DNA of 22,797 nt from a virus, in IMG/VR virus record IMGVR_UViG_3300024520_004462, positions 1-22,797 of that record. One strand, 5' to 3'. Each line of letters opens with the position of its first letter. Within the stretch, counting starts at the first letter, position 1. Shown in pieces: positions 2,667 to 19,112 of this stretch. The translations under genes were made by a program, and so were the position numbers. The notes under the pieces were generated by a model. That model ran no database searches. It was not told the origin of the DNA and saw nothing but the letters and a program-made list of their open reading frames with translations.

Positions 2667-3086
2667 ATGGCCAGAGAAACTTTTGCAGAAGCCCAGATCC
2701 CCGCAGAGGGTAAGGATGATGTCCCCTACGCGGATCACCGCGCTATCGCTCGCGCGCTCATGGGGCGAGCCACGGAGTCGATGATCGCCCAGGGCACCGG
2801 CGCTGGCGGCGCCGGCTTTGCGATCGTGAACGTCCCATTCGAGCCCGCCGCGCTCTTGGCGATCAACCAGGCGGGCGCAGCGCCGGCGCTCCACCACAGC
2901 ATCTACAGCCCCACGCCGGCGCACACGACCACGATTCTCGCGGTCGCCGCCAACGCGACGCCGGCCGTTATCACACAGGTGGCCGATAACGATTGGACGG
3001 TCACGTTGACGACAGCCATGGCTCCCGATGCGGAGGTTGTGACTGTTCTCCTTCTCGGCGTGCGCGACGCTACGCCGGGCATCTAG
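2667..3086 (+). CDS. Probable virion structural protein, 139 aa, unrecognised family
   Basis: The gene starts at ATG 2667 with an AAGGAAG ribosome binding site at 2653-2659. After a short charged N-terminus and a helix (residues about 22-45), the rest is rich in alanine, threonine and valine with alternating hydrophobic strands: AIVNVPFEP, TTTILAVAANATPAVI, WTVTLTTAM, VVTVLLLGV. This composition suits a small beta-sandwich virion protein such as a head decoration protein or fibre piece. I do not recognise the family. It is a single gene between terL and the giant-protein block, and is followed by a strong hairpin at 3113-3139 that may separate its expression from the genes beyond. The structural role is inferred from composition and location only. 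Confidence 0.75.
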   Translation: MARETFAEAQIPAEGKDDVPYADHRAIARALMGRATESMIAQGTGAGGAGFAIVNVPFEPAALLAINQAGAAPALHHSIYSPTPAHTTTILAVAANATPAVITQVADNDWTVTLTTAMAPDAEVVTVLLLGVRDATPGI

Positions 3087-3112
3087 CGCCGGACCGGTTA
3101 GGTGGTCGCATC

Positions 3113-3139
3113 GGCCGCGGAGCACATAGCTCCGCGGCC
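3113..3139. terminator. Perfect 11-bp GC-rich hairpin, terminator-like without T-run
   Basis: The arms ggccgcggagc (3113-3123) and gctccgcggcc (3129-3139) pair perfectly around a five-base loop acata. It lies wholly in the non-coding gap between the 139-residue gene and the next start at 3174. No T-tract follows, so this is not a classic intrinsic terminator. It could be a partial terminator, an RNA-processing or stabilising hairpin, or a protein-binding palindrome. Confidence 0.6.
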
Positions 3140-3173
3140 ACTCGCCGCTTGACCTCGAGTGAGGAGCGGAGCG

Positions 3174-5744
3174 ATGGGGCAAGGCGAGACCAGAGAGCGC
3201 GCACGCTGGCACACCGGCGCCGGGCGCTTTCCGGCGTACGCCCCGACTAATAAGATCCGCGCGCAGCTCCGCGCCGGTCGGGGTGAGATCAACGCGGTTC
3301 AGAACGCCGCGAATCGCCTCTTTCGCACCGGCTCCGAGCTCGCGCCGCTCCCCCGCAAGGTCGAGCGGCTCGAGGACGTCACGTTCGGCCTCGGATTGGA
3401 TAACGCAGACGCCCAGCGGATCCAGCGTCTCGTCAGCGACCAGAACGCGGAGACGACGCTCAAGACCCAGACTCAGCGCCTCTTCCTCGCGAGGGGCGCT
3501 CTGCTCGAGACCCTTCGCACGCTCCGGCACATCCCGAGCGAGACGAGGGGCGAGGTGGTGAAGCGAGCCACGGCATACTGGAGGCGCACCGTCCAAACGG
3601 ACTACGGGCGTGGCCCGCAGATCCGCTACACAGCAAGGAAATCCGATGCAGATCACGGCGCAGCAGAAGGAGCGGTTCTGGGGCCGCGTGGCGAAGGCGA
3701 GCCGTCGGTGGGGGCACGTAGCATGATCACCGCCCGCAAGAGCTCCGCGCCGGAGATGATGCACACGCTCCCGTTATCCACGCTGCTCTCGAAGGCCAAG
3801 AAAGGCTCGCAGGGCGCCGGCCACAAGTACGAGAGCCGCAAGCCCGACGGCCACGGAGGCTGGCTCTACAAGTACCCCGGCCAGGCTGGATGGCAGGCCG
3901 GCAAGGGCGCGCACGAAGGCACCACGAACGCGCTACCGGGCGAGCATCTCGACAGCCACCACAAGGGCTACAAGCCGACCGTCGAAAAGAAGGACGGCGG
4001 AGGGTTCACGCTGCACACCGGCGGCGGCATTACGAGCGATTTCCACCCCGATATGAGCACGGCTGACCACGAGGCGATGTGGGACCGCCACAAGGCCGGC
4101 GTCGATGCCGCGCGCCGCTCGGGAGACGAGGAACTCGAGCACGCGCACCGTCACGCGCTTCAGACACATTCTCGAGCTCACAATATGAAGCTCGAGGCGC
4201 AGCAAGCGGAAGGGCAACCTGGCGCGGCCCAGGGGGCAGCAGGGCCCGGAGCAGCGCCAGACGGCCAGCCACCAGGCGCAGCCCCCGGCGGCGCAGCCCC
4301 CGATGCTGAGCAAGGCGACCAGCCCCCGCCGATGGGCGCAGCTACCGGTCAGAACGGGCCGCCTGATGGCGGCGAACAAGGCGCCGCGCCGATGGGCGCC
4401 GAAGAGCAGCAGCAGCCACTTGAACAGCCCGGCCAGGGCGAGTCGCTCGCCATATCCGGAGGGAGACAGCGCCATTCAGCCGTCCACCCGGATATCCAAG
4501 CGGTCCAGCAAGGGCTCAGCCAAGCGACCAAGGTCATGAGCGATATCGTCGCGTCCCACGCTCACCAGCAGGAAGTGAAGAGCCGCATCGCCGCCGTGAA
4601 GGGCGACAAGTCACTCCCGAGAGCCATGAGAAAGCGGCTCATCGCCCAGCACAAGGCCGAGCTCGCAGCAGCCAAGCTCGACCAGGCCATGCTCGACGAA
4701 CACCACGACTCCGTGATGAGCGAGCTCAAGCAAGCCCAAAAGAAACTCAAGAAGCCGCACCCGATCCTCAAAAAGCTCATCGCCATCTTTGCGAAACTCC
4801 GGGGGCCCGGCGGGCCGAAGGATGACGCAGACCTCCACGAGCAAGCCCAGAAGATCAAAGAACACAGCAAGCGCCGCTCTGCCGACGAAGCACACGCCGA
4901 GCACCAGGCCGACGAGGCCTTGATGGGCGGCCCCGCACCAGACGAACCACAAGGCGCAGCAGAGCGAGCCGACCAAACTAGGCAAGCCGGAGGCGTCGGA
5001 GACGCGCAACCCATGGAGAATGAACCCGCACCGGCAACCGAGCAGCGCGCTCCAGGCGAACTGCCAGCAAACCCCGACGAAGCCTCGCAATCGGATAACG
5101 CGCCAGCCGCGAAGACCGAGAACAAGACCAAAAGCAAAAGACCAGCTGCCAGCAGGAAAAAGAGCGCCAAGAAGACGGCAGGCACCAAAGCCCACGTCGA
5201 AGCCGCAGCCAAAAAGGCCAGCGCTGCCGTAAAGGCGCACGATGAAGCCAAGCGCAGCGGGAAGGGCGTAGGCGCCGCTCACGACGACATGACAGATGCG
5301 CAGGACGCACACCGCACCGCCGACGCGCACCACACCGCAAAAGTCGACGCAGTCGAACACCGCGCAGCGCAGCGAGAACACGCGAAGGCGCACGCTGACC
5401 CGCGATCCACTAAGGCCCAGAAAGACGCCGCCACCGCCAAGGTCAAAGCTCTCGGAGAAAAAGCGCTCAACAGCGCAGCCAAGCACGCCAAGCACCAGGC
5501 CAAAACCGCAAAAAGACCAGCAGCGCGCAGAGGAGAACGGCTCGCCGCTTCCTTCGCCGAGCACGCGCAGATGGCCCTCGAGGAACTGAAAAAAGGATAT
5601 GCAGAGGAGACCGCGCGGTATGTAGCGCCATTATCCCAAAATGACGCCGTACAGATGCACCGGGCTGCGACGCGCCGCTCCGCGCCAGATCCAGGCGCTC
5701 CGGATACGCACTTCGGGCCGCTCCAGCACGTGGTGCGGCTGTGA
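3174..5744 (+). CDS. Low-complexity 856-aa phage protein with KYxSRK...GGW module
   Basis: I choose ATG 3174 because GAGGAG (3161-3166) sits correctly before it; a GTG at 3159 would add five residues. The product is 856 residues. Order: a helical basic N-terminal region (1-150); a KYESRKPDGHGGW...YKY module (218-234); a proline/glycine/glutamine-rich stretch (about 343-426); a helical or coiled-coil region (about 433-539); and an Ala/Lys/His-rich tail resembling histone H1-like tails (about 643-785). No catalytic motif is visible. Codons in the second half favour AAA, GCA and AGA, unlike the AAG/GCG-rich neighbours. The gene ends in a GTGA overlap with the giant gene, indicating coupled translation. 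A scaffold, DNA-condensing or internal virion protein would fit, but the function is not known. Confidence 0.8.
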   Translation: MGQGETRERARWHTGAGRFPAYAPTNKIRAQLRAGRGEINAVQNAANRLFRTGSELAPLPRKVERLEDVTFGLGLDNADAQRIQRLVSDQNAETTLKTQTQRLFLARGALLETLRTLRHIPSETRGEVVKRATAYWRRTVQTDYGRGPQIRYTARKSDADHGAAEGAVLGPRGEGEPSVGARSMITARKSSAPEMMHTLPLSTLLSKAKKGSQGAGHKYESRKPDGHGGWLYKYPGQAGWQAGKGAHEGTTNALPGEHLDSHHKGYKPTVEKKDGGGFTLHTGGGITSDFHPDMSTADHEAMWDRHKAGVDAARRSGDEELEHAHRHALQTHSRAHNMKLEAQQAEGQPGAAQGAAGPGAAPDGQPPGAAPGGAAPDAEQGDQPPPMGAATGQNGPPDGGEQGAAPMGAEEQQQPLEQPGQGESLAISGGRQRHSAVHPDIQAVQQGLSQATKVMSDIVASHAHQQEVKSRIAAVKGDKSLPRAMRKRLIAQHKAELAAAKLDQAMLDEHHDSVMSELKQAQKKLKKPHPILKKLIAIFAKLRGPGGPKDDADLHEQAQKIKEHSKRRSADEAHAEHQADEALMGGPAPDEPQGAAERADQTRQAGGVGDAQPMENEPAPATEQRAPGELPANPDEASQSDNAPAAKTENKTKSKRPAASRKKSAKKTAGTKAHVEAAAKKASAAVKAHDEAKRSGKGVGAAHDDMTDAQDAHRTADAHHTAKVDAVEHRAAQREHAKAHADPRSTKAQKDAATAKVKALGEKALNSAAKHAKHQAKTAKRPAARRGERLAASFAEHAQMALEELKKGYAEETARYVAPLSQNDAVQMHRAATRRSAPDPGAPDTHFGPLQHVVRL
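3822..3875 (+). other. KYxSRK...GGWxYxY module, copy in the 856-aa protein
   Basis: Residues 217-234 read H-KYESRKPDGHGGWLYKY. The same arrangement, with a longer lysine-rich insert, appears at 6299-6364 in the next protein. Both lie in basic, otherwise unrelated surroundings. Confidence 0.6.
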
Positions 5745-8700
5745 GCGCTCCGCACAGCTTCGATCTCGTGCGCCAGCTCGCCGGCAAAGCGCGGGATGAT
5801 CGATCACGTAGAGGTGCAGAATCGATGCGTCGGGAGGGCAACATTTCCCCCAGCGCAGAACAGGGTTCGGCGGGCACTGCGAGAGGGGGGCTCGAGCTCA
5901 GCAAGGCAGCCCAGGGGAGCGCAGCAGGCAGCCCAGGGCGAAACAGGGAGCTCGCCAAGGGCTCGACGAGGCCCCCGGGCGCAGCGACCCCGCCCCCCCA
6001 GCTCGAGCTCAGAAAGGGCAGGGGGCAGCGGGGACCCCATAGGCCGCCCGCTGTGCTCCCGGCCCCGCACGCTGCGACCCTCCAGCGCCGCAGGGGCCCT
6101 TTTGGATATCCGAATGGCCAGAATAGGCACGGGGGGACCACCTACCGCCCCGAAAATTTCGGAAAGGCGGCGCAGCCGAGGGAGTGGATAACGCTCCGAG
6201 GCTCTGACGGCACCGCGCGGCGCATGATGCAGGTCGATGCGGACCCGGCGGCCCTCGCGGAGGCGATGGCGAAGGCCCGTGGGCGCGCGAAGGGCGGAAA
6301 GTACACCTCGCGGAAGTGGAATCCGCGGAAGAACAAGGGCAAGGGCGGTTGGGACTACAGCTACCGTCACGACGGGAAGAAGCACGCGCGCCGGCGCAAG
6401 AAGGAAGCGGAGAGCCGGCAGCTGGGTCTGTTCGGCCGTCCGGTGGCTCCGGAGCCGGCGAAGGAAGAGCCGACGGCTCGGCGCGAGGAGAAGCCGGAGG
6501 CGGTTATCCAGCCTGGTGCTGTTGCGACGGCGGTGGCCCATGCGGTGGCGCCGCTCGATCTGCCTCCTGCGGTGAAGAACGCGGCTCGGCGCGTGGCGGC
6601 GAGCATCGCGCACATCCTGGCCGGTGCTCTTGGCCAGGTCTTCACGGTCAAGGTGTCGAACTACCGCTCGCAGGCGGATCGCCGCTGGATGAAGGGGGCG
6701 GAGCTCAAGTACCGGGTCACCGGGAAGACCACGGGTCAGTATGGCGGGCTCGAGGTGGAGCCGGTCGAGGGGACCAGGGGCCCGAAGGGGACGCTACACA
6801 TTCGACCGGCGAGCGGCGGCGACGTCGAAAAGGCCGCGATGCTCATGCTGTACGCCCAGGATGCGATCGGCGGGCACACGACCGGCCACCCGATCGATGT
6901 GCTGTCGGTGGCGGAGGCTCCGGCGCTGGGGCTCGAGACGCTCGAGGCTGAGCCGGGTGAGCCTGGGCCGCCGGCCGCCAAGCGGGAGAGCTTCGAGGCG
7001 CAAAAGCGCCGGGGCGCCACGCATACGTGGAGGGATGCGCTCAGCGAGGACCAGGCCCGCGCGGTCGCGAAGCACCCCGATGCCAAGTACCGCACGCAGG
7101 ACGGGACCCACGAGCGGGCGATGGAGCACGCCGAGAAGCTGGCCGAGCGCCTACGCGCGAATGGCATCAAGGGCGCGAAGGCGTGGGGCAAGAAGGACGT
7201 CCGCGTGTACGTGGGCCGGCAGTACCTCGCGATCGGCATGGACGGCACGGTCAAGGAGACGCAGCGAGGCAGACAGGTCTTCAGCCTTGGAGGGCTCTAC
7301 CCGAGCCAGCGCAAGGGCTTCCAGGCCGCTCGAGCTGCGCACCGTGACTGGCATCTCGCGGCGATGGCGAACTTGCGCAGGGAGCGTGAGAGCAACTTCG
7401 AGACGATGCCGGATTCCGTCGCCGAGGTCACCGAGGGCAGGGCCGCAGGCGCGAAGGAGGCCCGAGAGGACCATTGGACCGCCGAGATGCTGGCCAGCTA
7501 TCTCCGCCAGGTCGGGGCGCCGATCAACGCCTTCGACGCCGGGCATCAAGAGGGTCTGCGCGAGCAGGTTGCCAAGAACGAGGCGCAGGGAGGCCCGAGC
7601 GACGCTGGGGGGATTGGCCGAGGGGATGCGCCGGCGGATCCCACGCGCGAGCCTGGCCGTGGCGATCTCAGCGCTGGCGAGTTTGCGGCGATCATGGGCC
7701 GCAGCGAGACCACGGGGAGGGCCGACGAGCGGGCGATCATTCAGAAGCTCGCCGAGGCGGTGCGTGCGATGGCGCCGCAGGCGGCTGCGATCGCGGCCAT
7801 CCGAGCTCGCGGGGGCGACGCCTTCCCGACGCAGGAGCTCGCCGACAAGACGCGGGAGGCTGCCGAGGGTCGCATCATACGCGAGCACGGCATCACGGAC
7901 GGCCGGCTGCTCGGCTGGTTCTGGGATGCGGCTGAGCGCCCCAGCAACTTCGAGACGATGCCGGAGGCCGAGGACGCCCGGCTCGCCGCGGAGGTGGAAG
8001 GCCGGCGTGCTGCTGCGCGCGAGGACAAGCCTTACCGGGTCTTCTCAACGCCCGGCTACCGCGATCCGTCTGCTGCCCACGAGAAGGCGACGAAGATTCG
8101 GTCCCAGGGGGGCCAGTCCGTTCGTGTGGACAAAAAGGGTGCCCAGTGGGTTGTGGGCTACACCGCAAAAGGCCCTTTGCACGCCGAGCTCGCGGAGCGG
8201 CCGAGCAACTTTGAGACGATGCCGGAAGCGCAGCGGCGCGACGCGGCGGCGGTGCTGGAAACCGCTGGGGCGCCTTCGGCGCTCGCGGAGGCTTTCGGGC
8301 CGCGGGTTAAGAGCGGATTCAAGACCAAGAAAGCGGCCAGCGCCTATGCGAAGCAAGTAGATAAGGAGGGGCGCCGGACGGCTGAGCCGGCGTTCCGCGC
8401 GAAGGACGTGCGGGTCGAGGGCAAGCGCGGCGCCTGGACGGTGCATTACGAGGCGGAGGCGTATGACCGGCCTCCGCCTGCGGTGCTGCCAGCGCCGAGC
8501 GCGAAGATCACACCCGAGGGGATGGACGCGGAGGCGAAGGCTTTGGCGGCGGAGCTCGGGCTCGAGGACCGGGTGACGGCTCATGACGGGCACGACCACG
8601 CGCTCTTTGGGCGTAGCATCATCGTGAGCGTGCGGAGCGAGGGCAAGGCGATCCACGACGGGCGCGAGCTCCTGGCGAAGCTGCGCGAGCGGTGGAAGGT

Positions 8701-11700
8701 CTGGGGTCCGGTGAACTACCTCGAGGTGCGGATGGGAGCCTCCGCCGGTGGGAGCAGCGGCTATCCAGACGGCACGATTCTCAGCCTGGTGGTCCGGCCC
8801 GACCTCGAGCGGGATTCTGACCTCGAGCGCCCTACCCTCCGCCCGGACGCTGAGCGCGGGTTGGCGCCGGGGGACCGCGCGCGCGGCACGGCTCTGGTTG
8901 AGCGGCTCGAATCGGAGCGCTCCCTAACCGCCGAGGAGGCAAAGGCCCGGCTGGCTGCGCTGCTCGAGGGGCTGACCGATGACGAGAAGATCCAGAAGAT
9001 GGGCAGCGCTTCCGTCGTGGACGGCAAGCGGGTTTATAGCTGGTGGGGGTGGTCGGACCGGCAGGCGCACAAGGCTGTTGCTGATCTGATCGCGAGTGGC
9101 GACCTCCAGGCCATCTATGCGGCGAAGCTCGCGAGTAATCGCTCGTCAAACCGAGCCAAGGCGCGGATCAAGGAACTCACCGGCAAGAACCGCTCGCGGC
9201 TCTATGCAGGTGATGAGGGCTACGCGGAATGGGCGCGGTTGAGCGGGATCGTCGGCCTGTTTCGCGGCATCCAGCAGTCGCTCATAGCCGCTCTCGATCG
9301 GCCGCCGCCAGTGGTGGAGCCCGAAGCGGTGGCCGAGTCGGACGAGGATTTCGCCGACAGGATGGAAGAGGACGAGGACGAGCTCGCGGACCGTGCGGAG
9401 GCCTACGGCGAGCCGCCGCCCGCCGAGGATGACGCCCCGCCCGGCTTTTACGAGGCGATGGGGCAGCCCGGCGCGAACGATCCGAAGCCCCCGGGTTGGG
9501 ACCGGATGCCGAGCGGCGGCGCCGGAGTAGACCGGGGCGTGACCTCGGGTCAGTCGTCGATACCCCGCGCGAAGCTCCTGCGGGAGCTCGCCAGCTGGCC
9601 GGCGGCGATTGGATATCCGCTGGACCGGCCGGGTGTGCGCGAAGCGCTCGCGGCGGGGCATATCGCCGGCGAGGAGCATCGCGGCGAGCTCCACGGGGCC
9701 TACAGAACGGACAAGGGCTCAAACTGGCTGGCCGAGCAGGCCGAGGCGAAGGCCGCGGACGCCAAGGCGGTGATCGAGGAGGCGAAGGCCGCAGCGGAGG
9801 CGAAGCTCGAGGACGCCAAGGCCGTGCTCGAGGAGGCCAAGCCGCCGGTCCCGAAGCTCAAGCCGATCTGGGAGGTGGTCAGCGCGGATCGAGACGGCAA
9901 GCCCACTGAGCGCTACTGGAAGCTCGACAGGATCCGCTGGCCGGGCCTCGTGGTCTGGGACCACGGCAAGTCTGGGCGGGGCGGTCGGTACGAGGTGAGC
10001 TCGATCAGCCACGGCGGGGTCGTCGAGGGCCAGGGGTTCCGGTTCCGGAACATGCGCCAGGTGGCCGAGCATCTCGCGACCGTCAAGGTGACGCGCGAGG
10101 TGGCCGAAGCTCCGGCCAGCAGGGTCGTGTCCGACCCCGAGCAGTGGCCGGGCGCGGTCGCGCAGCGGAAGGAAGAGGACGAGTACGCGCGGCGGAACCG
10201 GGTCCGCGCGGCGATCACCCAGGAGGACCGGGGCAAGTACCCGGCCGACGTCATCGAGGAGGCCGAGGCGATCGGCTTCCGGCCGGACAAGGTGCTCGAG
10301 CTCCGCGCGATGAGCGAGCGGGAGGAGGCGGACTACGGCCGCAAGATGCGCCGCGGCATGCGCGAGGAAGAGGCGCAATACCAGCGCGAGCAGATGGCGC
10401 CGGCGCAGCGGCGCGACGCCGCGGCGGTGGCGGGCGGCGCGGCGCCGAAGCCCTCGAGCTCGAAGTCTCCCTATGTGCGCGCGGACGAGCAGATCCACCG
10501 GGCGCTCCGCACGACGGGCAAGAACACCGGCGACGGTGGCAAGGTGCTCGAGGGCGGGCACGCGGCGATCGACTCCGCGCTGGCCGATGCGAAGAGCGCG
10601 ATCGACAAGCTGGCCGCCACCGGCGAGGTCAACCATCTGGCCCGGCTGACGACCGGACTGAAGAGCAGCCGCGTGGGCGCCGGTGCCAACGGGGTCGTAC
10701 ACAAGAAGATCCGAGAGCACGCGGAGAAGGCGCTCGCAGGGATGCAGAGCGGCGCCGCGGCGAAGCGCCTGCGGGAGTCGCCGAAGGACGCAGCAAACGC
10801 GATGGCGCTCGAGCCGTACACCAAGGCCAAGGAGCTCGCGCGCGATCTCCGCGGCGGCGCGCGCGGCGATCACGCCAAATTCGAGGCCGTGCGGAGCCAG
10901 CTCGCCAGCCAGGTGGCCACGGTCCAAGCGGCCGGGGCGCTCAAGGGTGCGCAGGAATACGCGAAGCTCGTGAAGCGCATGGGCGAGATGGTGAGCGCGA
11001 TCGGCAAGGGCGCCGACGCGCACGGCAAGGAAGTGATCGCGAGCCTCGCCGGCCTCTTCGATGACGCCGGCCGCGCCGTCTATCGGCACTACACGGAGAA
11101 GCCCAAGGCCCCGGCGCCGATGGAGCAGGCCCAGGTCAAGGCTCTACACAGCGTGAGGCGCGGGCAGACTATCCAGGTCAACGGCAAGGCCCGCGTGGTG
11201 AAAAACACCGTAGGCGGCGGCCGTTCGGTGAGCGCCCACGATACGGGCTTTCAGACGACCACGGTCTATTTCAAGGACGGGTCCAGGGTTTCCCTGGCGC
11301 ACAACTCGCGCGTGCCTCTTTTCGGGGCAGGCGATGAGGCAGGCACTCCGGCGTCGGTGAGCATCGCCACGGCGGCGAGCCGCGCGAAGCTGACGGCGAA
11401 GGCCAACCAGGAGGCCAACCAGGCGAAGGCCAAGGCACGCCGCGCGAAGGAGGCCAGGTATCGGGAGGTGTCGCAGCGCGCCTCGGCGAAGCTCAAGGAG
11501 AAGCGCGAGCAGGTCGAGACCGAGGCTAAGCTCGAGGCGCTCCGGCGCAAGACGTCGAAGCCGAAGAGCGCGAAGGAGCGCACGGTCTCGATGGGATTCG
11601 AGAACGAGGCATTTTCGCTCACGCCCCAGGCGCGCGCGGAGTCGTTCGGCGCGTTCGTGCCGGATCCGGTCGACACGCAAGAGTCGATGTTCGGGGGCAA

Positions 11701-12994
11701 GCCAGCGCCGAAGGCTCCGGCCGAGCCCGCGACGGCCGAGCCCGATCATCGAGCGGTGCTCGGCGATGACGGGCTGACCGATCACCAGCGCGAGCGGAAG
11801 GAAAAGAAGCGGCGCAAGGCCACGCGGCTGCGCGCGGAAGCGGAAGGGCAGTGGGCCTCCTCGGGAGCCCAGGTCCGGCATATCCCGATGGGGCAGCCGA
11901 TCCTCATGGGCCACCACAGCCAGCGGAAGCACCAGCGCGCGATCGAGCGAGCTCAGAGCCTCTCGTCCAAGGCTGCGGCGACGTTCCGTGAGGCCGAGAA
12001 CGCTGCGAGCTCCGTGGAGTCGGGCAACCATGTGGTGAGCTCGGACGATCCCGATGCGGTCTCCGCGCTCAAGGTGAAGCTCGCGGGGCTCGAGGCGCAG
12101 CGCGCGCGCATCAAGGCCTACAACAAGGGCAAGAAGAAGGACCCCAACCCCTGGGGCCACAGCGAGACCAAGCGGGAGGAGGGGGTGCTCTACCGGCATC
12201 CGAGCTACATGCTCAGCAACCTCGGCGCGACCATCCGCAACACGAAGAAGCGGATCGAGAAGCTCGAGCGCGCGGCGGCCCTGGCCCCGCGCCCCGACAT
12301 CGTGGGGGACGGCTTCACGATCGAGGAGGACAAGGAAGCGAACCGGATCCGGTTCCACTTCCACGCGGGCAAGCCGAGCAAGGCCATTATCCAGAAGATG
12401 AAGCGCAACGGGTTCCGGTTCTCGAGGCGCGAGGAGGCTTGGCAGAGGCACCTCAACACGCAGGGCCGGTACGCCACGCAGCAGATGGCCAAGGAGATAT
12501 TCGGCTACGATCCCGATGCGGGTAAGGTGTCGAAGAGCAGGAGAGCGGCGATGGACGAACTTAGGAAGGCGGAGGAAGGTCCGTACATCGGGAAGCGGGG
12601 CGGATTCTGGAAAGATGCGAGGCACACGATCCCGTATAAGCGGAGAGACCACGTGGCTCGGCTCAAGAAGCGCGAGGCGAGGCACCAGAAGAAGAGCTCG
12701 AAGCCGAGCAAAAAGCGTTCGTTGGTGCAGCGAATGTTTGGGAAGAAGCCGGACGCCATTGATGCGCTGAGTTCGCTCGGGCACAGCCAGCACGCGGCCG
12801 ATTTGAGGTCTGGTACGCGCCATCATGAACGCCAGCTCGCGCAGCACGGCAATCACCAGCTCGTGGCGACCACGCCCCAGGGCAAGGTCTGGGGATCGAG
12901 GAAGCACAAGGATACTGACGTACACCCGAGGCACCGGATCGACTCGCTTGAGGCGCTCCAGGTCGCGCCTCGGATTCTCTCGAGGAATAGGTGA
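5741..12994 (+). CDS. Giant polyvalent-type protein, 2417 aa, with DUF3560 domain
   Basis: Starts at GTG 5741 in a GTGA overlap with the upstream stop. Order of parts: low-complexity linker (1-130); KYTSRK...GGWDYSY module (187-208); QLGLFG (227-232); three related small alpha/beta modules (about 430-910) interleaved with three SNFETMP linkers (551, 735, 822); acidic Pro-rich linker; Ala/Lys/Glu coiled coil (about 1330-1370); further helical regions; a DUF3560 domain (about 2010-2180) with the hallmark IPMGQPILMGHHS at 2048-2060; a module with GFRFSR...AWQRHL (2224-2238), often found beside DUF3560; and a GPYIGKRGG block (2280-2299). DUF3560 and large multi-domain chains are typical of 'polyvalent proteins' of phages and conjugative elements, which are thought to enter the host with the DNA and act early, for example against defences. 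No enzyme active site is recognised. Its position among head genes supports virion packaging by inference. Confidence 0.9.
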   Translation: MSAPHSFDLVRQLAGKARDDRSRRGAESMRREGNISPSAEQGSAGTARGGLELSKAAQGSAAGSPGRNRELAKGSTRPPGAATPPPQLELRKGRGQRGPHRPPAVLPAPHAATLQRRRGPFGYPNGQNRHGGTTYRPENFGKAAQPREWITLRGSDGTARRMMQVDADPAALAEAMAKARGRAKGGKYTSRKWNPRKNKGKGGWDYSYRHDGKKHARRRKKEAESRQLGLFGRPVAPEPAKEEPTARREEKPEAVIQPGAVATAVAHAVAPLDLPPAVKNAARRVAASIAHILAGALGQVFTVKVSNYRSQADRRWMKGAELKYRVTGKTTGQYGGLEVEPVEGTRGPKGTLHIRPASGGDVEKAAMLMLYAQDAIGGHTTGHPIDVLSVAEAPALGLETLEAEPGEPGPPAAKRESFEAQKRRGATHTWRDALSEDQARAVAKHPDAKYRTQDGTHERAMEHAEKLAERLRANGIKGAKAWGKKDVRVYVGRQYLAIGMDGTVKETQRGRQVFSLGGLYPSQRKGFQAARAAHRDWHLAAMANLRRERESNFETMPDSVAEVTEGRAAGAKEAREDHWTAEMLASYLRQVGAPINAFDAGHQEGLREQVAKNEAQGGPSDAGGIGRGDAPADPTREPGRGDLSAGEFAAIMGRSETTGRADERAIIQKLAEAVRAMAPQAAAIAAIRARGGDAFPTQELADKTREAAEGRIIREHGITDGRLLGWFWDAAERPSNFETMPEAEDARLAAEVEGRRAAAREDKPYRVFSTPGYRDPSAAHEKATKIRSQGGQSVRVDKKGAQWVVGYTAKGPLHAELAERPSNFETMPEAQRRDAAAVLETAGAPSALAEAFGPRVKSGFKTKKAASAYAKQVDKEGRRTAEPAFRAKDVRVEGKRGAWTVHYEAEAYDRPPPAVLPAPSAKITPEGMDAEAKALAAELGLEDRVTAHDGHDHALFGRSIIVSVRSEGKAIHDGRELLAKLRERWKVWGPVNYLEVRMGASAGGSSGYPDGTILSLVVRPDLERDSDLERPTLRPDAERGLAPGDRARGTALVERLESERSLTAEEAKARLAALLEGLTDDEKIQKMGSASVVDGKRVYSWWGWSDRQAHKAVADLIASGDLQAIYAAKLASNRSSNRAKARIKELTGKNRSRLYAGDEGYAEWARLSGIVGLFRGIQQSLIAALDRPPPVVEPEAVAESDEDFADRMEEDEDELADRAEAYGEPPPAEDDAPPGFYEAMGQPGANDPKPPGWDRMPSGGAGVDRGVTSGQSSIPRAKLLRELASWPAAIGYPLDRPGVREALAAGHIAGEEHRGELHGAYRTDKGSNWLAEQAEAKAADAKAVIEEAKAAAEAKLEDAKAVLEEAKPPVPKLKPIWEVVSADRDGKPTERYWKLDRIRWPGLVVWDHGKSGRGGRYEVSSISHGGVVEGQGFRFRNMRQVAEHLATVKVTREVAEAPASRVVSDPEQWPGAVAQRKEEDEYARRNRVRAAITQEDRGKYPADVIEEAEAIGFRPDKVLELRAMSEREEADYGRKMRRGMREEEAQYQREQMAPAQRRDAAAVAGGAAPKPSSSKSPYVRADEQIHRALRTTGKNTGDGGKVLEGGHAAIDSALADAKSAIDKLAATGEVNHLARLTTGLKSSRVGAGANGVVHKKIREHAEKALAGMQSGAAAKRLRESPKDAANAMALEPYTKAKELARDLRGGARGDHAKFEAVRSQLASQVATVQAAGALKGAQEYAKLVKRMGEMVSAIGKGADAHGKEVIASLAGLFDDAGRAVYRHYTEKPKAPAPMEQAQVKALHSVRRGQTIQVNGKARVVKNTVGGGRSVSAHDTGFQTTTVYFKDGSRVSLAHNSRVPLFGAGDEAGTPASVSIATAASRAKLTAKANQEANQAKAKARRAKEARYREVSQRASAKLKEKREQVETEAKLEALRRKTSKPKSAKERTVSMGFENEAFSLTPQARAESFGAFVPDPVDTQESMFGGKPAPKAPAEPATAEPDHRAVLGDDGLTDHQRERKEKKRRKATRLRAEAEGQWASSGAQVRHIPMGQPILMGHHSQRKHQRAIERAQSLSSKAAATFREAENAASSVESGNHVVSSDDPDAVSALKVKLAGLEAQRARIKAYNKGKKKDPNPWGHSETKREEGVLYRHPSYMLSNLGATIRNTKKRIEKLERAAALAPRPDIVGDGFTIEEDKEANRIRFHFHAGKPSKAIIQKMKRNGFRFSRREEAWQRHLNTQGRYATQQMAKEIFGYDPDAGKVSKSRRAAMDELRKAEEGPYIGKRGGFWKDARHTIPYKRRDHVARLKKREARHQKKSSKPSKKRSLVQRMFGKKPDAIDALSSLGHSQHAADLRSGTRHHERQLAQHGNHQLVATTPQGKVWGSRKHKDTDVHPRHRIDSLEALQVAPRILSRNR
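6299..6364 (+). other. KYxSRK...GGWxYxY module, copy in the giant protein
   Basis: Residues 187-208 read KYTSRK, a lysine/asparagine insert, then GGWDYSY. It matches the module at 3822-3875 in spacing and aromatic positions and is followed by a run of lysines and arginines. Confidence 0.6.
7391..8224 (+). repeat. Three SNFETMP repeats in the giant gene
   Basis: The heptapeptide SNFETMP is encoded at 7391-7411, 7943-7963 and 8204-8224 (residues 551, 735 and 822). The second and third copies extend to ERPSNFETMPEA. They separate or flank small modules of similar pattern (glycine-rich start, Ala-rich helix, then a VRV...W/Y-V strand pair), so the region looks built by duplication. Confidence 0.75.
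9758..9841 (+). repeat. Coiled-coil repeat DAKAV(I/L)EEAK, two copies
   Basis: DAKAVIEEAK (9758-9787) and DAKAVLEEAK (9812-9841) are 18 codons apart inside an Ala/Lys/Glu-rich segment, residues 1340-1367 of the giant protein. This probably forms a single long helix or coiled coil acting as a spacer. Confidence 0.6.
12578..12637 (+). other. GPYIGxRGG...HTIPY module, giant-protein copy
   Basis: Residues 2280-2299 of the giant protein read GPYIGKRGGFWKDARHTIPY. This is a diverged copy of the block found at 15024-15092 and 21938-22006. It is preceded by an acidic/basic run and followed by a strongly basic stretch. Confidence 0.65.
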
Positions 12995-13686
12995 GCGGAA
13001 AGTCCCAGCGCGCTCCGGCGCAGCGCCGGATGCGCGGCAAGCTCACCGTCATCAACGGCGAGGGCGGGCCGCGCGTGGCGAAGATCCGCAAAAAGAAGCG
13101 CGATGACGAGGACGACATGGCGGAAAAGAGCGAGGCTAGTGCCCCGTTGATCGTACCTGTTGACAGGCTCCGCTTTCGGGGCAGGGCGGCGCTCGTGAGG
13201 GCGCACCTGCATAGCTTCGGTGAGCTCAAGAAAAAGCTCCCGTTTTCGGCGCTTCCGCTTACGGCGCCGACGCACGGACCAGCCCCGGTTTGGGAACGTC
13301 AGCCTACCCCGGATTTCGCGGATATCTACTTCCAGCCCGAGAGTGACGAGCGCAACAAGCTCCAGCGGGAACAGCGGCGCAATCGGCGGATGGCCAATGC
13401 GGCGCGTAACGCTGGGATTTCGTCGTTTCACGGCGAGACACACGACGGCGAGCCCGAGCTCCGCTACGACCCCGAGACCACGCTCAACGTAGCGGCAACG
13501 TATGGCCAGGCGCCGGGGCGTAAGCAGCGGACGGCGCTGGTCGTCCCGAAGCGGATGGACCGCCTCGCGGCCGGCACGACAGACCAGGGCTCGACATACA
13601 AGGACGACCCCGATGAGGACGAGGATGAGAAGCGCGAGCGCAGGCTGCGCTTTGTTTCGCGACGTCCGACTCGGCGAATTGAATGA
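12991..13686 (+). CDS. Basic phage protein of unknown function, 231 aa
   Basis: Starts at GTG 12991, overlapping the giant gene's stop as GTGA, with GAGG at 12982-12985 as ribosome binding site. The N-terminus is strongly basic (RAPAQRRMRGK, then KIRKKKR). It is followed by a mixed central part with VPVDRLRFRGRAALVRAHLHS, then a charged helix (KLQREQRRNRRMANAARNAG). The C-terminus has an acidic cluster DDPDEDEDEK directly before an arginine-rich end. No known domain is recognised. The charge pattern would suit nucleic-acid or protein binding, but that is only a guess. The short basic QRR segments resemble linkers of the neighbouring giant protein, which supports a common origin or co-function. 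Confidence 0.8.
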   Translation: MSGKSQRAPAQRRMRGKLTVINGEGGPRVAKIRKKKRDDEDDMAEKSEASAPLIVPVDRLRFRGRAALVRAHLHSFGELKKKLPFSALPLTAPTHGPAPVWERQPTPDFADIYFQPESDERNKLQREQRRNRRMANAARNAGISSFHGETHDGEPELRYDPETTLNVAATYGQAPGRKQRTALVVPKRMDRLAAGTTDQGSTYKDDPDEDEDEKRERRLRFVSRRPTRRIE

Positions 13687-13733
13687 GCTCGATCGTTGAC
13701 GTGGGCGCAGCCCTCGCGCACCTTCGCAGGTAG
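13683..13733 (+). CDS. Possible 16-codon micro-ORF coupling two genes
   Basis: An ATG at 13683 overlaps the preceding TGA as ATGA and opens 16 codons (MSSIVDVGAALAHLRR) before a TAG at 13731. The AGGAAG ribosome binding site of the next gene follows at once. It may be a leader that hands ribosomes on, a decayed gene start, or chance. Confidence 0.25.
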   Translation: MSSIVDVGAALAHLRR

Positions 13734-13742
13734 GAAGAACGT

Positions 13743-16700
13743 ATGAACCCGCTGAACCGAAAAATCCCAGAGGGCACCAAGCCCGCGAGCGTAGCTGCCC
13801 TCGAGTCCGAGGTGGCGTCCCAGGCTGCGGGTAGCCCGGCGCCGTCCGAATTCGAAACGGCGCGTCCGAAAGTGCTCGGTCAGGGTGCGATGACCAAGGG
13901 TGGCGATTTTGTGAATTGGGACGCGCTTATGCCTACTATGCGGAAGGCGGATCCTAGCTCTTACGACCCTGCCGAGGCTCCTGACCCGCGCGCTGCGCTG
14001 GCAATGCCCACGAGCCCGCAGGCGATTGCGGCTGCTCTACAGGCCCAAGGGACGGATCTCACCGCTTGGGGGTTGGCGAAGTCCGGAGCGGCGCGGGTGG
14101 TTAAGCGCGTGAGCCCTTACGGGACTCGCGTAGTGAAAAACCCCCGAGCGGGTGGGATCCAAACGGCGCATGAGGAGGGGGCGCCTTCTCGCCATGGCGT
14201 GGTCAGCACTTCGGGTTTCATGAGTCGCCGGGATGCGGTCGCCGCCAACATGGTAGGCAAGCTCGAGGTGCCTGCGCGCCATCGCAGGCCGGCGGGCGGC
14301 GCTGCTCAGCATATCGAAGGGGCCGTGCGTAGTGTTCAGCGCCGGATGGGCTGGGGCAACACGGCCGGGCACGGGCTTCGCGTGCCCACTACTGAGCAGG
14401 GCCGCCGCCGGATGGACCCGGGATCGTTACCGAAGGAGCTCCCGAAGGAGCAGATGACTCCGGGGAAGCCGGCGGGTGGTTCGGGTAGGGAAGGCAGCAA
14501 GGAGAAAAAGGGAGGCCCGCGGAAGTCGTCGCCGACGACGATGACCGGCAAGATGCGCCGCAAGGTCATGCGCGCAGCGATGACGGGCAAGGTAGGCCCT
14601 GGCTCGCGTGGGACGCATGGACGGTCTGGCGTAGCTGGGCCGGGGGCTACGGGGCCCGGAGGGCACAACCAGCCCCCTATGACGAGGCACACGACCTCGA
14701 GCGGGCGCACCACCGACAAGGACATGGAGACCGGGGCCTCGATGAGCTATGGCGGCGGCCAGCCCTACTCCTCCCAGCGGCCCAGCAGGGGGTGGGGATC
14801 GGGCAGCGCGCAGATGACCGGCAAGATGGCCGAGACCGTTGGCCGCGCGAAGATGTATGCGAAGAAGGCGAAGGCTGAGCGGGAGGCTAGGCGCAGCACC
14901 AGGGGCGGCTACGCTTACGCCGGTGCCCCTTGGGCGATGGCGCGGAGCGCCGACGCTATCGATGGGCTCGAGGATCTCGTCAAGATGACGATGATGCCCG
15001 AGGAGAAGGCCGCGGCGCTGCTCTCGAAGGGAGGCCCGTACACCGGGCCGCGTGGGGGGAAGTGGGCCGACCCGCAGCACAAGATCCCGTGGTCTCCCGA
15101 GGGCTCGAAGGATGACAAGCGTGCCCACCACCGCACGCGGGCTATCCATCACCGCGCTCACGCGGACGAGATCGAAAAGCGCCTGTGGGACCGAGCGCAC
15201 GCTCGATCCCGCAAGGAAGCGCAAGCGGCATGGGACGCGAAGCACAAGGGTAAGGACCCCAAGGGCAGCAAGGGCTTTCTGGGGATGGGCAAGCATCCGC
15301 CGCGCCCCACCAGGGGCGAGCACTCCGCCGAGCTTCGTAAAAAGAAGTTCAAGGCCGACCGCAAGCTCCACGAAGCGCTCAAGCACCACCAGAAGATGGA
15401 AGCCGCGCACCACGAGGCGAAGGGCGGCCTCGCCGATACGCCGTGGGACGTGAGCTCCGGCAGGGTCTACCGCGTGCGGGACGTTCGGAAGGATCTCAAG
15501 AAGCTCTCGGATGCTGAGCTCAGCAAGGCCTCGCACGGCAACTCGCTCATGGGGAAGCAGGGCAGGGGAACCGTAGCGGGTCACATGAGCGCGAAGATGG
15601 CCGAGCGCCCGTATACGGGCGCTGGGAAGCGCACGGGCACGCCCGGCCACTACGAATATGAGTACGGCGGCAGCAAGGGTGGGCAGAAGGGGAAGCACGG
15701 CGAGACCGACATCCCCGAGTACAAGATCACCGTTCGCGGCAAGAGCCACGAGGAGATCGCCCAGAAGATCAAGAGCGGGATCGACAAGGCGGCCGACCTC
15801 TGCAAGACCGATCCCCCCGTCTGCGCCGGCAATCTGGGGATCGTGCGGACGTGGATGCCGCAGTTCAACGACGACCCGAAAAAGGGCGGCGACAAGAACG
15901 CGATCAAGAACTTCCTCGCCGAGTTCAAGGCGGAGGGGAAGGGCGTCAAGAGCCAGAAGGCCGACGGCAGCCCGTTCACGCGCCCGGTCGGCACGCTGAA
16001 AGCGACCCAGCGCGAGATCAAGACGGCCAAGAGCTACGGCATGGCCTCGGCTCAGAAGAAGTACGAAGAGAGCAAGGCGCGCGGCGACGGCGGGTTCTAC
16101 GATGCCGTGTTCGATGGGAAGAAGGTGCGGACCGACTGGCACCCTTCCAAGAACGCGATCGTGGTCTCCAAGGACGGCTACGTGCTCGACGGGCACCACC
16201 GCTACGCCGCCATGGTGATCGCGGATCCCGGGTTCCAAATGCCCGTGCATGAGGTGGACGCGACGATCGAGGAGATCCTCGACAAGACGCAGGAGTGGTT
16301 TGAGCAGGGCAAAGCGATCAAGAAGGCTGATTTTCAGGGGAAGCCCGTGAGCCCGAAGGATCAGGTCGGCAAGACGCCTCCGTGGTCGAAGGCGATGCGC
16401 GCGGCAGGCCTCGGTGGCAAAAAGAAGACGACCAAGAAGAGCATGGAGCACGACCAAATGATCAATCTACACAAGGGGGACATCCCCGAGCCGCCCCCGC
16501 TGCCCGGTCGTAGGAGCCGCGTGCCTCCGCCGCAGCGCCCGGCGCCCACGGGCCGCATGAGCGCGAAGATGAGCGCGAAGATGAAGAAGCGGCAGGCGTG
16601 GCGAGATTACGTGGGCGACTTCGTGGGCAAGTGTGGCGATGACGTGCCGCAGCCGAAGCGGCTCCGGCGCTCGATGGATGGCGCGCTCGAGATGGATCTC

Positions 16701-17384
16701 CGCAAGGGGGGGCTTTACTCGTTCAATGATAGCCACGCGAAGAACCGGAGTTCTCTCCCGGCGAAGCTCCTGCCGGAGTACCTGGCGGCGTTCGTCGAGG
16801 AGGCGTACGAGCACGAGCGGAAGGAGTGCGAGCACCGGAAGATCGCGCCGCTCGCTGATGAAGACCACGCGGAGTTCTGGGCAAAGCGTGTTCTGGGCGA
16901 GCTCGTGGTTTATATGCGGATGAACAAGGATTTGGCCCGTGCCGGAAAGGGTCAGACCGTCAAGACAATCGCTTCGGTCCTGCGCTCACGCGGGATCGTT
17001 AAGCCTTCGCACAAGACGACCACCCCGACGGATCGTGACAGCGCGGTGGCGATGAACGCGCGCATCGACGGGCAGAATGCCGAGGTGCTGGCGTTCTCCG
17101 AGGTCAAGCGCGGGCATTTCCGTGAGGAGCTCGAGAAGGCCGGCGCTTCTCTCGAGCTCTCCGGCTGGCGAGGTGTGCCGGAGATTGAGGTCATCGACGA
17201 CAAGGTGGATCCTTTCGCGGCGGGAGCCCGCACCGAGGCGGCTCGCGTCGGGCGCATGGGCGCGATGAGCAAGGGCTTCGTCGCGCGCGCGAGCGTGAAT
17301 CACGAGTGTGTGATCCACGGCTTCCGCGACCTCACGAAGAGCCAGAACCTCGCGAACCCTGACGGGCACTGCATTTGCGGGTAA
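13743..17384 (+). CDS. 1213-aa phage protein with ParB/sulfiredoxin-like domain
   Basis: ATG 13743 has AGGAAG at 13732-13737. The N-terminal 425 residues are low complexity, rich in Gly/Arg/Lys/Ser, with MTGKM repeats. A GPYTGPRGGKW block (428-450) and a His/Lys-rich helical part follow. Residues about 690-870 form a ParB/sulfiredoxin-superfamily domain: LKATQREI precedes IVVSKDGYVLDGHHRYAA (806-823), in which DGHHR is the signature, and MPVHEVDATIEEIL closes it. This superfamily includes ParB CTPase/nuclease folds and is known in phage polyvalent proteins; which activity applies here is unknown. A proline-rich linker (about 915-938), MSAKM repeats and a helical region come next. The C-terminus has a possible zinc site, CVIH (1189-1192) with HCIC (1209-1212). 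It lies 3 nt upstream of the portal gene. The domain is firm; the role, perhaps a virion-delivered protein, is inferred. Confidence 0.88.
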   Translation: MNPLNRKIPEGTKPASVAALESEVASQAAGSPAPSEFETARPKVLGQGAMTKGGDFVNWDALMPTMRKADPSSYDPAEAPDPRAALAMPTSPQAIAAALQAQGTDLTAWGLAKSGAARVVKRVSPYGTRVVKNPRAGGIQTAHEEGAPSRHGVVSTSGFMSRRDAVAANMVGKLEVPARHRRPAGGAAQHIEGAVRSVQRRMGWGNTAGHGLRVPTTEQGRRRMDPGSLPKELPKEQMTPGKPAGGSGREGSKEKKGGPRKSSPTTMTGKMRRKVMRAAMTGKVGPGSRGTHGRSGVAGPGATGPGGHNQPPMTRHTTSSGRTTDKDMETGASMSYGGGQPYSSQRPSRGWGSGSAQMTGKMAETVGRAKMYAKKAKAEREARRSTRGGYAYAGAPWAMARSADAIDGLEDLVKMTMMPEEKAAALLSKGGPYTGPRGGKWADPQHKIPWSPEGSKDDKRAHHRTRAIHHRAHADEIEKRLWDRAHARSRKEAQAAWDAKHKGKDPKGSKGFLGMGKHPPRPTRGEHSAELRKKKFKADRKLHEALKHHQKMEAAHHEAKGGLADTPWDVSSGRVYRVRDVRKDLKKLSDAELSKASHGNSLMGKQGRGTVAGHMSAKMAERPYTGAGKRTGTPGHYEYEYGGSKGGQKGKHGETDIPEYKITVRGKSHEEIAQKIKSGIDKAADLCKTDPPVCAGNLGIVRTWMPQFNDDPKKGGDKNAIKNFLAEFKAEGKGVKSQKADGSPFTRPVGTLKATQREIKTAKSYGMASAQKKYEESKARGDGGFYDAVFDGKKVRTDWHPSKNAIVVSKDGYVLDGHHRYAAMVIADPGFQMPVHEVDATIEEILDKTQEWFEQGKAIKKADFQGKPVSPKDQVGKTPPWSKAMRAAGLGGKKKTTKKSMEHDQMINLHKGDIPEPPPLPGRRSRVPPPQRPAPTGRMSAKMSAKMKKRQAWRDYVGDFVGKCGDDVPQPKRLRRSMDGALEMDLRKGGLYSFNDSHAKNRSSLPAKLLPEYLAAFVEEAYEHERKECEHRKIAPLADEDHAEFWAKRVLGELVVYMRMNKDLARAGKGQTVKTIASVLRSRGIVKPSHKTTTPTDRDSAVAMNARIDGQNAEVLAFSEVKRGHFREELEKAGASLELSGWRGVPEIEVIDDKVDPFAAGARTEAARVGRMGAMSKGFVARASVNHECVIHGFRDLTKSQNLANPDGHCICG
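14541..16583 (+). repeat. Dispersed MTGKM / MSAKM peptide repeats
   Basis: MTGK or MSAK motifs are encoded at 14541, 14580, 14814, 15585, 16557 and 16569 (residues 267, 280, 358, 615, 939 and 943 of the 1213-residue protein). Each lies at a junction between low-complexity and more structured parts. The last two are in tandem, with a further Met after them. Confidence 0.7.
15024..15092 (+). other. GPYTGPRGGKW...HKIPW module, 1213-aa protein copy
   Basis: Residues 428-450 read SKGGPYTGPRGGKW then ADPQHKIPW. It is nearly identical in protein to the copy at 21938-22006, which begins SKGGPYIGPRGGKY, but codons differ at many positions, so the copies are not a recent DNA duplication. Confidence 0.75.
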
Positions 17385-17387
17385 TTC

Positions 17388-19112
17388 GTGGGCATCGCTG
17401 AAGACATGGCGCGCGCGGCGCTCCGGGCCGCTGGGGATTGGGCCACGCAGTCGGATGACGACGTGTCCCAGCCCATGATGGCCGATGCGCTCAGCAAGGC
17501 AGGGCTCGCCGAGCCCACCGAGGAGAAGCCTCGGGCCCTCTTCCACGATCCTTACAGCGTCATGGACTGGGGCGGCTGGCGCCAGCGGCCCAGCGCGCTC
17601 ACCTACGACACGCTCCGCCAGATGACGGTAAGCAACACCGTCGTGGCCGCCATCGTCCAGCTGCGGATCGATCAGGTGGCGCAGTTCGCGCGCCCCCAGC
17701 AGGGCGACTACGACAAGGGCTTTCGAGTCATCAAACGAGACCGGCGCGACAAGCGTAAGAAGATGACGCAGGTCGAGCAGAAGAAGGCGGCCGAGCTCGA
17801 GCGGATGATCGAGACCACCGGCTATCTCCTGCCGGATGAGCGCACCTACGACCGCGACTCGTTCCGGAGCTTCCTCAAGAAGTCGATCCGCGATGTGATG
17901 ACCTACGATCAGATGTGTTTCGAGAAAATCCGCGACCGCAAAGGGCGGCCATCGCGATTCCTGGCCCTACCGGCAGAGACCATCCGTCCAGCCGTCGCGG
18001 ATGTCGAGCACATGGACCCCGCCGAGCGGCGCAATCGCGTGGCCTACGTCCAGGTGTACGAGGAGACCGTGATCGCCGAGTTCGGCCCGGATGATCTCGC
18101 GTGGTGCGTAAAGAACCCTCGGAGCGATCTGCGGGTCAACGGCTTCGGCTTTTCCCCGATCGAGCAGATCATCCGGCTCGTGACCGCGTGGCTCTACGGG
18201 TTCGAATACAATACGCGCTTTTTCACCCAGGGGAGCGCGGTCAAGGGGATCATCAACATCAAGGGGGCCATCCCGGACAGGCAGCTTAGAGCCTTCCGGC
18301 GTATGTGGTACTCGATGATCTCGGGGGTCTCCAACGCTTGGAAGACGCCGATCCTTAACTCTGAGGATATCCAATGGCATTCCCTCCATTCGACAAATCG
18401 TGAAATGGAATTCGGCGCCTGGATGGACTGGTTGACCAAGCTCACGTGCAGCGTCTTTGGGGTCGATCCGGTAGAGATCAATTTCATTTTTGGCGGCGGC
18501 GGTTCAGGTGGCGGTGGTGGGCCGATGTTCGACAAGCGGCCCAATAAGGCCGAGGTGACCGAGAGCAAGGACAAGGGGCTCACGCCTCTCGTGCAGCACA
18601 TTCAGGACCAGATGAACCACCACTTGATCTGGGAGCTCGACGAGGATTTTGAATTCGCGTTCACCGGGATCGATGCCCAGGGCGAGGGCAAGGCTCGCGA
18701 AGCCCGCAATGTCGAGGTCCGCGGATGGAAGACGGTTAATCAGATCCTCGCCGAGCAGGATCTCGATAAAATGCCTGGGGAGCTCGGAGACGTGATCCTC
18801 GACCCGACGTGGCTACAGTGGGCCAGTCAGAAGAGCGCCGAGGAACAGGAGGCCAACGCGCCCGAGGACCCCGCCGGCCCGCTCCCCGAGGACCCGGACG
18901 AGGACAAGCCCAGCGCAGCGGCGGAGCTTGGGCCGGGCGCCCCTGGTCCAGCCGTGTCGGAGCCGTTTGAGTACCAGGGCGAGGGTGAGCCGATGGAGGC
19001 GTCGTTCGATGCGACGCTGGCCCGGCTTGATGAGCTCCGGAAGGGCGAGCGCAGCTGGACGCTGGCCGGCAGTCAGCAGATCATCGAGTACAAGTCGGGA
19101 GACGAAGGCTGA
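17388..19112 (+). CDS. Phage portal protein
   Basis: The portal forms the dodecameric ring at the head vertex through which TerL pumps DNA. The 574-residue product starts at GTG 17388, three bases after the previous stop. Supporting segments, in order: the N-terminal VSNTVVAAIVQLRIDQVAQF helix (crown/wing side); FLALPAETIRPA and ERRNRVAYVQVYE strands; DLAWCVKNPRSD and GFSPIEQIIRLVTAWLYGFEYN, which match the portal core and stem pattern; LTKLTCSVFGVDPVEINFIF; and the later TESKDKGLTPLVQHIQ helix. A glycine linker GGGGSGGGGG occupies residues 369-378. The C-terminal 100 residues are acidic and proline-rich. The type resembles HK97/PBSX-like portals, although closest family cannot be fixed here. 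It overlaps the next gene (stop TGA shares its A with ATG 19112). Confidence 0.93.
   Translation: MGIAEDMARAALRAAGDWATQSDDDVSQPMMADALSKAGLAEPTEEKPRALFHDPYSVMDWGGWRQRPSALTYDTLRQMTVSNTVVAAIVQLRIDQVAQFARPQQGDYDKGFRVIKRDRRDKRKKMTQVEQKKAAELERMIETTGYLLPDERTYDRDSFRSFLKKSIRDVMTYDQMCFEKIRDRKGRPSRFLALPAETIRPAVADVEHMDPAERRNRVAYVQVYEETVIAEFGPDDLAWCVKNPRSDLRVNGFGFSPIEQIIRLVTAWLYGFEYNTRFFTQGSAVKGIINIKGAIPDRQLRAFRRMWYSMISGVSNAWKTPILNSEDIQWHSLHSTNREMEFGAWMDWLTKLTCSVFGVDPVEINFIFGGGGSGGGGGPMFDKRPNKAEVTESKDKGLTPLVQHIQDQMNHHLIWELDEDFEFAFTGIDAQGEGKAREARNVEVRGWKTVNQILAEQDLDKMPGELGDVILDPTWLQWASQKSAEEQEANAPEDPAGPLPEDPDEDKPSAAAELGPGAPGPAVSEPFEYQGEGEPMEASFDATLARLDELRKGERSWTLAGSQQIIEYKSGDEG

Follow-up and report, generated by a model that had tools for sequence, protein, structure and literature searches.

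Predicted lysine-site processing of polyvalent-type proteins encoded beside the portal gene of an uncultured herellevirus-like phage

Introduction

Polyvalent proteins, described by Iyer et al. (2017; PMC5512222) with DarA, DarB and DdrB of phage P1 among the examples, are believed to equip phages for the opening minutes of an infection, and how such giant proteins are loaded, cut and passed through the narrow tail has been a standing question. In P1, the prohead protease Pro cuts DarA, an anti-restriction virion protein (PMC12810830, PMC9024508), and the prohead proteases of SPN3US, phiKZ and T4 cut ejection proteins after Glu, the SPN3US site being A-x-E (PMC5694885, PMC10052503).

We analysed a window of 22,797 bases, an IMG/VR record that represents a fragment of a virus genome, in which a block of large proteins is encoded ahead of the portal gene. 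Basing our view on sequence comparison, we prefer, with a probability of about 0.6, the reading that the prohead protease would cut packaged polyproteins at LxK-[AGS], after the lysine, into effectors that are injected separately. The proteins of the block and of its relatives resemble those of Iyer et al. in being large and multidomain, in their late-gene setting of portal and terminase genes, in their zincin and MuF-like partners, and in their ddrB-ParB, InPase, ART-PolyVal, SNF2, LPD1, DarA_C, RadC and PRTase modules; they differ in that repeated modules of a lysine site followed by a motif that we call M1 stand between the domains, and in that they are grouped around the portal gene in uncultured 100-kb contractile phages. 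Concerning processing, Iyer et al. favoured built-in zincins (PMC5512222), whereas the evidence presented here points to the prohead protease.

P1 DarA loses one N-terminal piece of ~9 kDa, whereas for the proteins studied here we predict several internal cuts in one chain. As with the internal proteins of T4 and the ejection proteins of SPN3US and phiKZ, the proteins are predicted to be head cargo with a short site at which the prohead protease acts during maturation; unlike in those systems, the predicted cut follows Lys, the sites are internal and repeated, and the tag would be kept on the downstream piece. The T4-type capsid targeting sequence, an N-terminal propeptide that is removed, is resembled in part only, since most sites here are internal. 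Members of the Herelleviridae (SPO1 gp3.1-gp6.1, A511, phi812) share a homologous portal, prohead protease and capsid protein with these phages, and have a capsid cleavage after Lys and a protease with a copy of the capsid N-arm; in contrast, the SPO1 head module has no polyvalent block, and the known members, which are from Bacillota, have larger genomes.

Gene organization of the window

All genes described here lie on the + strand. The gene for the terminase large subunit, terL (808-2556; 582 aa; PHROG phrog_38, E 1.6e-57; Pfam Terminase_6C), is followed by that of a 139-aa protein (2667-3086), which is kept 3' of terL in relatives with 32-46% identity. The block consists of the ORFs of an 856-aa protein (3174-5744; ATG start, with an in-frame GTG at 3159 that would give 861 aa), a 2417-aa polyvalent protein (5741-12994), a 231-aa protein (12991-13686), whose aa 98-160 are kept in relatives, and a 1213-aa polyvalent protein (13743-17384), the final gene of the block. 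GC3 values of 0.75-0.86 are coding-like in all reading frames. The portal gene (17388-19112; 574 aa; GTG start; Pfam Phage_portal, E 2.6e-20, with a PHROG match also) comes next, followed by the gene of a 588-aa head protein (19898-21664), in which a helical MuF-like part (1-393) is joined to a zincin metallopeptidase with HELGH at aa 505-509, and by a further cargo gene that starts at 21893 and is cut by the contig end.

The ORF calls confirmed four proteins of 856, 2417, 231 and 1213 aa between terL and portal, as the initial annotation had described, over 14.2 kb; on inspection of the sequence, the GTGA overlaps at 5741 and 12991 proved to be real, and the 1213-aa gene does stop 3 nt ahead of the portal GTG. 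The tight coupling claimed for these genes holds at the two overlaps but not between the 231-aa and 1213-aa genes, which are 56 nt apart, so the coupling along the block is not continuous; because the 139-aa gene is a fifth gene in the gap, the distance from terL to portal is 14.8 kb. The interval that separates the 139-aa gene from the block contains a GC-rich hairpin with a perfect 11-bp stem, a 5-nt loop and no T run (3113-3139, +); the RNA fold z of the region 3087-3173 is -3.8, and the hairpin might divide the terL and block transcripts. Scans of the window detected no tRNA, no Rfam family and no excess of sigma-70-like promoters.

Relatives and the tie between block and portal

Searches of IMG/VR with the portal and terL gave 33 and 13 loci, respectively, with 50-73% identity; for the portal this range holds for clade A, and the identity is mostly 37-46% in clade B. 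In all 10 relative contigs that hold both genes, the terL-portal gap amounts to 4.1-15.7 kb and contains 2 to 8 genes, so the gap of the window is not due to chance and the wide spacing is a clade-wide layout. On four of the 10 distinct contigs (G002, G003, G006 and G008) terL lies on the opposite strand, and the block therefore belongs to the portal operon and accompanies the portal instead of terL. A block that "separates terminase from portal" was thus the wrong frame, because terL is divergent in these four relatives and M1 cargo genes occur also after the portal. The non-adjacency of terL and portal had been regarded as an oddity; the content of the gap is indeed unusual, but SPO1, the nearest isolated relative by portal, carries RNR and small genes ahead of its portal and likewise lacks the adjacency, which is therefore less unusual than the content.

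Within the block, the first and last modules are conserved, i.e., the N-terminal ~170 aa of the 856-aa protein, an anchor present in 13 of 13 relative records, and the C-terminal domain of the 1213-aa protein; the parts between them are variable, and their gene sizes differ wildly among relatives. The middle of the 856-aa protein is rich in lysine and appears disordered. By portal and capsid the closest isolates are SPO1 and other herelleviruses, and in a gene-by-gene comparison with the Herelleviridae the head genes and the tail sheath are homologous, but with only ~30-37% identity for portal and capsid. Since G003 has a tail sheath gene, the particle is contractile-tailed.

Three observations on relatives and host can be added. 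A 2211-aa ORF between the MuF-like gene and the protease in G001 (51487-58122) is a putative second cargo block, downstream of the portal, of a kind found in some relatives. The portal gene of one relative (L030:8624-10795) is broken between residues 349 and 350 by ~140 in-frame codons, possibly an intein. A search for the host among genome contigs gave one match, to a short contig of a gammaproteobacterial MAG, which was too weak to name a host.

Domain content

The 2417-aa protein contains a DUF3560 domain (aa 2014-2129; 11780-12127, +; Pfam, E 1.1e-17) adjoined by matches to phrog_6744 (E 1.8e-29) and phrog_19458 "primase", together with regions that have no match. The 1213-aa protein contains a ParB/sulfiredoxin-like module (aa 694-888; 15822-16406, +; phrog_2859, E 1.3e-14) that carries DGHHRYAAM at aa 816-824, is common to relatives of phage F116 and has a weak match to the ParB-like phrog_620 (E 0.036), and the conserved helical C-terminal domain (16707-17381, +), which is always the last module before the portal and was modelled as a confident helical bundle with no fold match. 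A C-x2-H ... C-x-C end of this protein (17307-17378) is kept in relatives and is likely a zinc site next to the portal gene. PADLOC and NCBIfam gave no match for the four block proteins, and among the four pattern matches obtained with the 2417-aa protein as an IMG/VR query there was no close relative.

The multidomain organization and the repertoire of Iyer et al. (2017) are clear in the relatives, although in the window they are limited to the ParB-like module and DUF3560, joined to the C-terminal domain and the unmatched regions, respectively. Of 31 M1 proteins, ddrB-ParB was found in 10, InPase and SNF2 in 8 each, ART-PolyVal and Zeta in 3 each and LPD1 in 2; DarA_C, RadC, RelA_SpoT and LPD25 occur additionally in M1 proteins of relatives, genes of this kind in relatives also encode PRTase domains, and one 2230-aa protein joins SNF2, ddrB-ParB, Zeta and RelA. 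The block adjoins the portal gene and the gene of the MuF-like/zincin protein, a late-gene context of portal and terminase. The interpretation of the initial annotation is hence upheld in part: proteins of polyvalent type are encoded in a late head-gene cluster, supported by the diagnostic domains that relatives carry there, whereas the terminase-portal frame failed and the LxK-M1 architecture had been overlooked. Counter-defence, which it proposed, is a plausible role, one among several for these proteins.

This domain content bears also on a simpler explanation, in which the block proteins are structural or scaffolding proteins of the head with adhesive Lys-rich linkers and have no role in a new host. 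Such an explanation would suit the location in the head operon and the conserved but unclassified anchors at the two ends of the block; however, the highly variable middle parts carry ART, Zeta, RelA_SpoT, InPase and helicases, none of which a scaffold needs, and we consider it highly improbable.

The M1 motif

Sorting of short repeats across the relatives yielded M1, a motif of ~22 residues with the consensus G-P-[YF]-I-G-P-[RK]-G-G-K-W-A-D-x-x-H-T-I-P-W. IMG/VR contigs, where a DNA pattern scan for its core gave 111 stretches, contain 167 distinct copies of it, and it is missing from all 50,697 isolate phages and all 72,556 plasmids; a Pfam search with the M1 and M2 (see the last section) peptides gave no family even at E 10. 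M1 is an undescribed motif, and the internal LxK-M1 architecture of the block is a new element. Because a homologous portal was present in 22 of 25 M1 contigs checked and a homologous capsid protein in 30 of 31 records checked, M1 marks a broad lineage.

For 22 contigs with known portal and capsid positions, all 61 mapped M1 copies are on the portal strand, within an interval that runs from 13.4 kb upstream of the portal to the capsid gene. This interval makes up ~40% of the sequence, and of one of the two strands only. None fell elsewhere or on the other strand, in keeping with the late head-gene position assigned to the block at the outset, and since the loci came from an unplaced scan, this clustering is not an artefact of the search. 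In individually scanned proteins with Pfam hits, M1 lies outside the domains in 26 of 26 copies, where ~3-4 would be expected inside. The first M1 is at most 30 aa from the predicted N-terminus in only 24 of 131 M1 proteins, some of these ORFs being truncated by contig ends.

M1 might alternatively be a DNA-level repeat that aids recombination of modules and has no function in the protein, an idea invited by its position at module boundaries and by some copies within one protein that share codons above expectation (L030 80/329, L084). Among copies within one protein, however, codon identity is 0.53 against 0.47 expected while amino acid identity is 0.76, indicating that selection acts on the peptide and not on the DNA; we rejected the idea on these codon data and regard it as barely credible.

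Lysine sites

A lysine followed by A, G or S is found within 12 aa upstream of M1 in 155 of the 167 distinct copies (93%), whereas stretches drawn at random from these proteins have it in 23%. The LxK form precedes 74% of the copies, compared with 4.5% by chance; 12 copies have no such K-[AGS]. In the window, examples are ELRK2276-AEE with M1 (GPYIGKRGGFWKDARHTIPY) in the 2417-aa protein (12566-12637, +; site score 5.7), LLSK429-GG with M1 (PYTGPRGGKWADPQHKIPW) in the 1213-aa protein (15027-15092, +; motif match) and LSK17-GG with M1 at the N-terminus of the cargo gene that starts at 21893 (21941-22006, +; motif match).

Further candidate sites are LEELK807-G in the 856-aa protein (5577-5597, +; site score 6.2) and MDLRK988-GGLYSF in the 1213-aa protein (16692-16724, +), which opens the conserved C-terminal domain; at the latter position LxK-[GS]-xYxF is kept among relatives, and the AF2 model switches there from disorder to order. 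In the 588-aa protein, WDLRK407-A (21104-21121, +) is located between the MuF-like part and the zincin, in a linker that is otherwise variable and of low confidence in AF2, though across 20 sequences the conservation of L405 and K407 reaches at least 90%. In three relatives, an M1 cassette is inserted exactly at this MuF/zincin LxK junction, with ~150 extra codons (L123:1220-3466, -; L168; L172).

The LxK form occurs in three places without M1, i.e., the capsid N-terminus, the prohead protease and the MuF/zincin junction. When a profile that covers the eight residues preceding the lysine, and that was built from M1 sites of the distant clade B only, was applied to the 395 K-[AGS] of G003, capsid K31 ranked 6th, MuF/zincin K410 13th and protease K165 26th (rank-sum p 1.5e-4). 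Across the whole proteome, late proteins show only a mild excess of LxK-[AGS] (odds 1.9, p 0.018), and with so modest an enrichment many single tetrapeptides must be due to chance. Plain counting of LxK-[AGS] per protein gave a weak signal, and our case therefore rests on the M1 sites, the conserved junctions and the capsid and protease sites.

A longer form of the lysine site, DAI[DE]GLxxLxK-[GA], is present four times in a 1414-aa protein of G003 (L052:13492-17736; LxK at aa 11, 637, 917 and 1122), and DAIDGLEDLVK is found also in the window at 14952-14984.

The spacing between the lysine and GPRGG of M1 varies from 5 to 12 aa, and this bears on another explanation, that the proteins are virion cargo that remains uncut, with M1 plus the lysine forming one motif that docks them to the capsid interior, the portal or the scaffold. 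M1 is conserved far above the need of a flexible protease linker, the capsid localisation signal of P1 DarB functions on a foreign protein (PMC9024508), and the virion RNA polymerase of N4 (vRNAP) is packaged unprocessed (PMC5512222), all of which would be in line with docking. Nevertheless, the variable spacing speaks against a single rigid motif, and the presence of LxK in the capsid protein, in the protease and at the MuF/zincin junction, where M1 is missing, does not fit it, so that we judge this explanation improbable.

Prohead protease and capsid protein

The contig of the window ends before its own protease and capsid genes, and we examined those of relatives. The prohead protease of G003, encoded beside scaffold and capsid genes, matches phrog_1028 (E 4.4e-42) and TIGR01543 (E 5e-4) and is 43% identical to SPO1 gp3.2 over 178 aa. 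All 19 capsid proteins listed have [LI][RNH]K-AL at the N-terminus, so that one site form is shared by capsid protein and cargo, as in substrates of HK97/S78-type prohead proteases. The mature peptide (mat_peptide) of the A511 capsid homologue begins at S24, after ALK, and that of phi812 (PDB 9row) begins at S25, after VVK; these sites, ALK-S and VVK-S, are after Lys, yet not strictly LxK.

Cutting could instead be attributed to the zincin fused to the MuF-like head protein, the LxK then being merely a feature of linkers. Self-processing by MPTase domains was predicted by Iyer et al. (PMC5512222), and the C-terminal HELGH zincin of the 588-aa protein is kept in relatives and has fold matches to PPEP-1/PPEP-3 and the lethal-factor class with probability 0.97-0.99, although with E 0.05-0.2. 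Against this, the junction of the zincin itself is an LxK site, which fits its release by a different enzyme, LxK agrees in form with the cut positions mapped in homologues for substrates of the prohead protease, and the best fold neighbours of the zincin include Pro-Pro endopeptidases. Pro-Pro endopeptidases are not known to prefer Lys-Gly/Ala. We therefore regard the zincin as an unlikely processing enzyme of the block proteins.

Behind its own K-S site, the prohead protease holds a copy of the capsid N-arm (G003, L053:4408-5148 versus 6098-7507), and in A511 the corresponding copy is 57% identical over 42 aa (L203:528-1322 versus 2378-3781); it resembles a substrate mimic that is built into the enzyme, or an anchor to the shell.

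Proposed mechanism

Processing by the prohead protease, the reading that we prefer, is modelled on the layout, domains, motif, statistics, conserved sites and protease/capsid homology, with the protease and capsid of the window taken from relatives. The block would be that part of the head operon in which an uncultured, contractile phage of herellevirus-like type encodes its cargo polyproteins, and these proteins would be composed of unrelated effector and DNA-handling modules on disordered linkers. They would be expressed late and then presumably enter the prohead, inside which an S78/HK97-type prohead protease is predicted to cut the cargo after lysine at (D/E)xLxK-[AGS]; the same protease would also act on the major capsid protein, on its own chain and at the MuF/zincin junction, with the zincin as one more released module. 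Freed modules would often begin with the M1 tag, which would stay at their start and may perhaps retain the piece in the head or guide its exit, and small freed modules would probably pass down the tail along with the DNA and exert their effect in the newly infected cell. The more specific proposal that M1 is a new packaging/ejection tag, retained on swappable effector modules that are bounded by LxK-[AGS] and separated by the prohead protease in the particle, is a tentative one, to which we give somewhat less than an even chance.

If the mechanism is true, LxK-[AGS]-M1 would be a general loading code, module by module, for virion cargo. The site plus tag is easily searched and provides a concrete and cheap test of cargo processing, and LxK-M1 would mark the boundaries of effector modules in the genomes of many uncultured phages; most of these modules have no match to a known family. 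M1 could also serve as a tag to load chosen proteins into phage heads.

Other repeated motifs

The heptapeptide SNFETMP occurs three times in the 2417-aa protein (aa 551, 735 and 822; 7391-8224), in a part with no known domain. A second, aromatic motif, M2, with the form [GH]KYxSRK...GGWxYxY and a GTPGHYEYEYG variant, is present in block proteins and relatives. In the window it is found in the 856-aa protein (GHKYESRKPDGHGGWLYKYPG; 3819-3881, +), the same motif occurring in eight other proteins of relatives and the window, in the 2417-aa protein (GKYTSRKWNPRKNKGKGGWDYSYRHDG; 6296-6376, +; motif match) and at 15627-15671, and it may be another class of tag.
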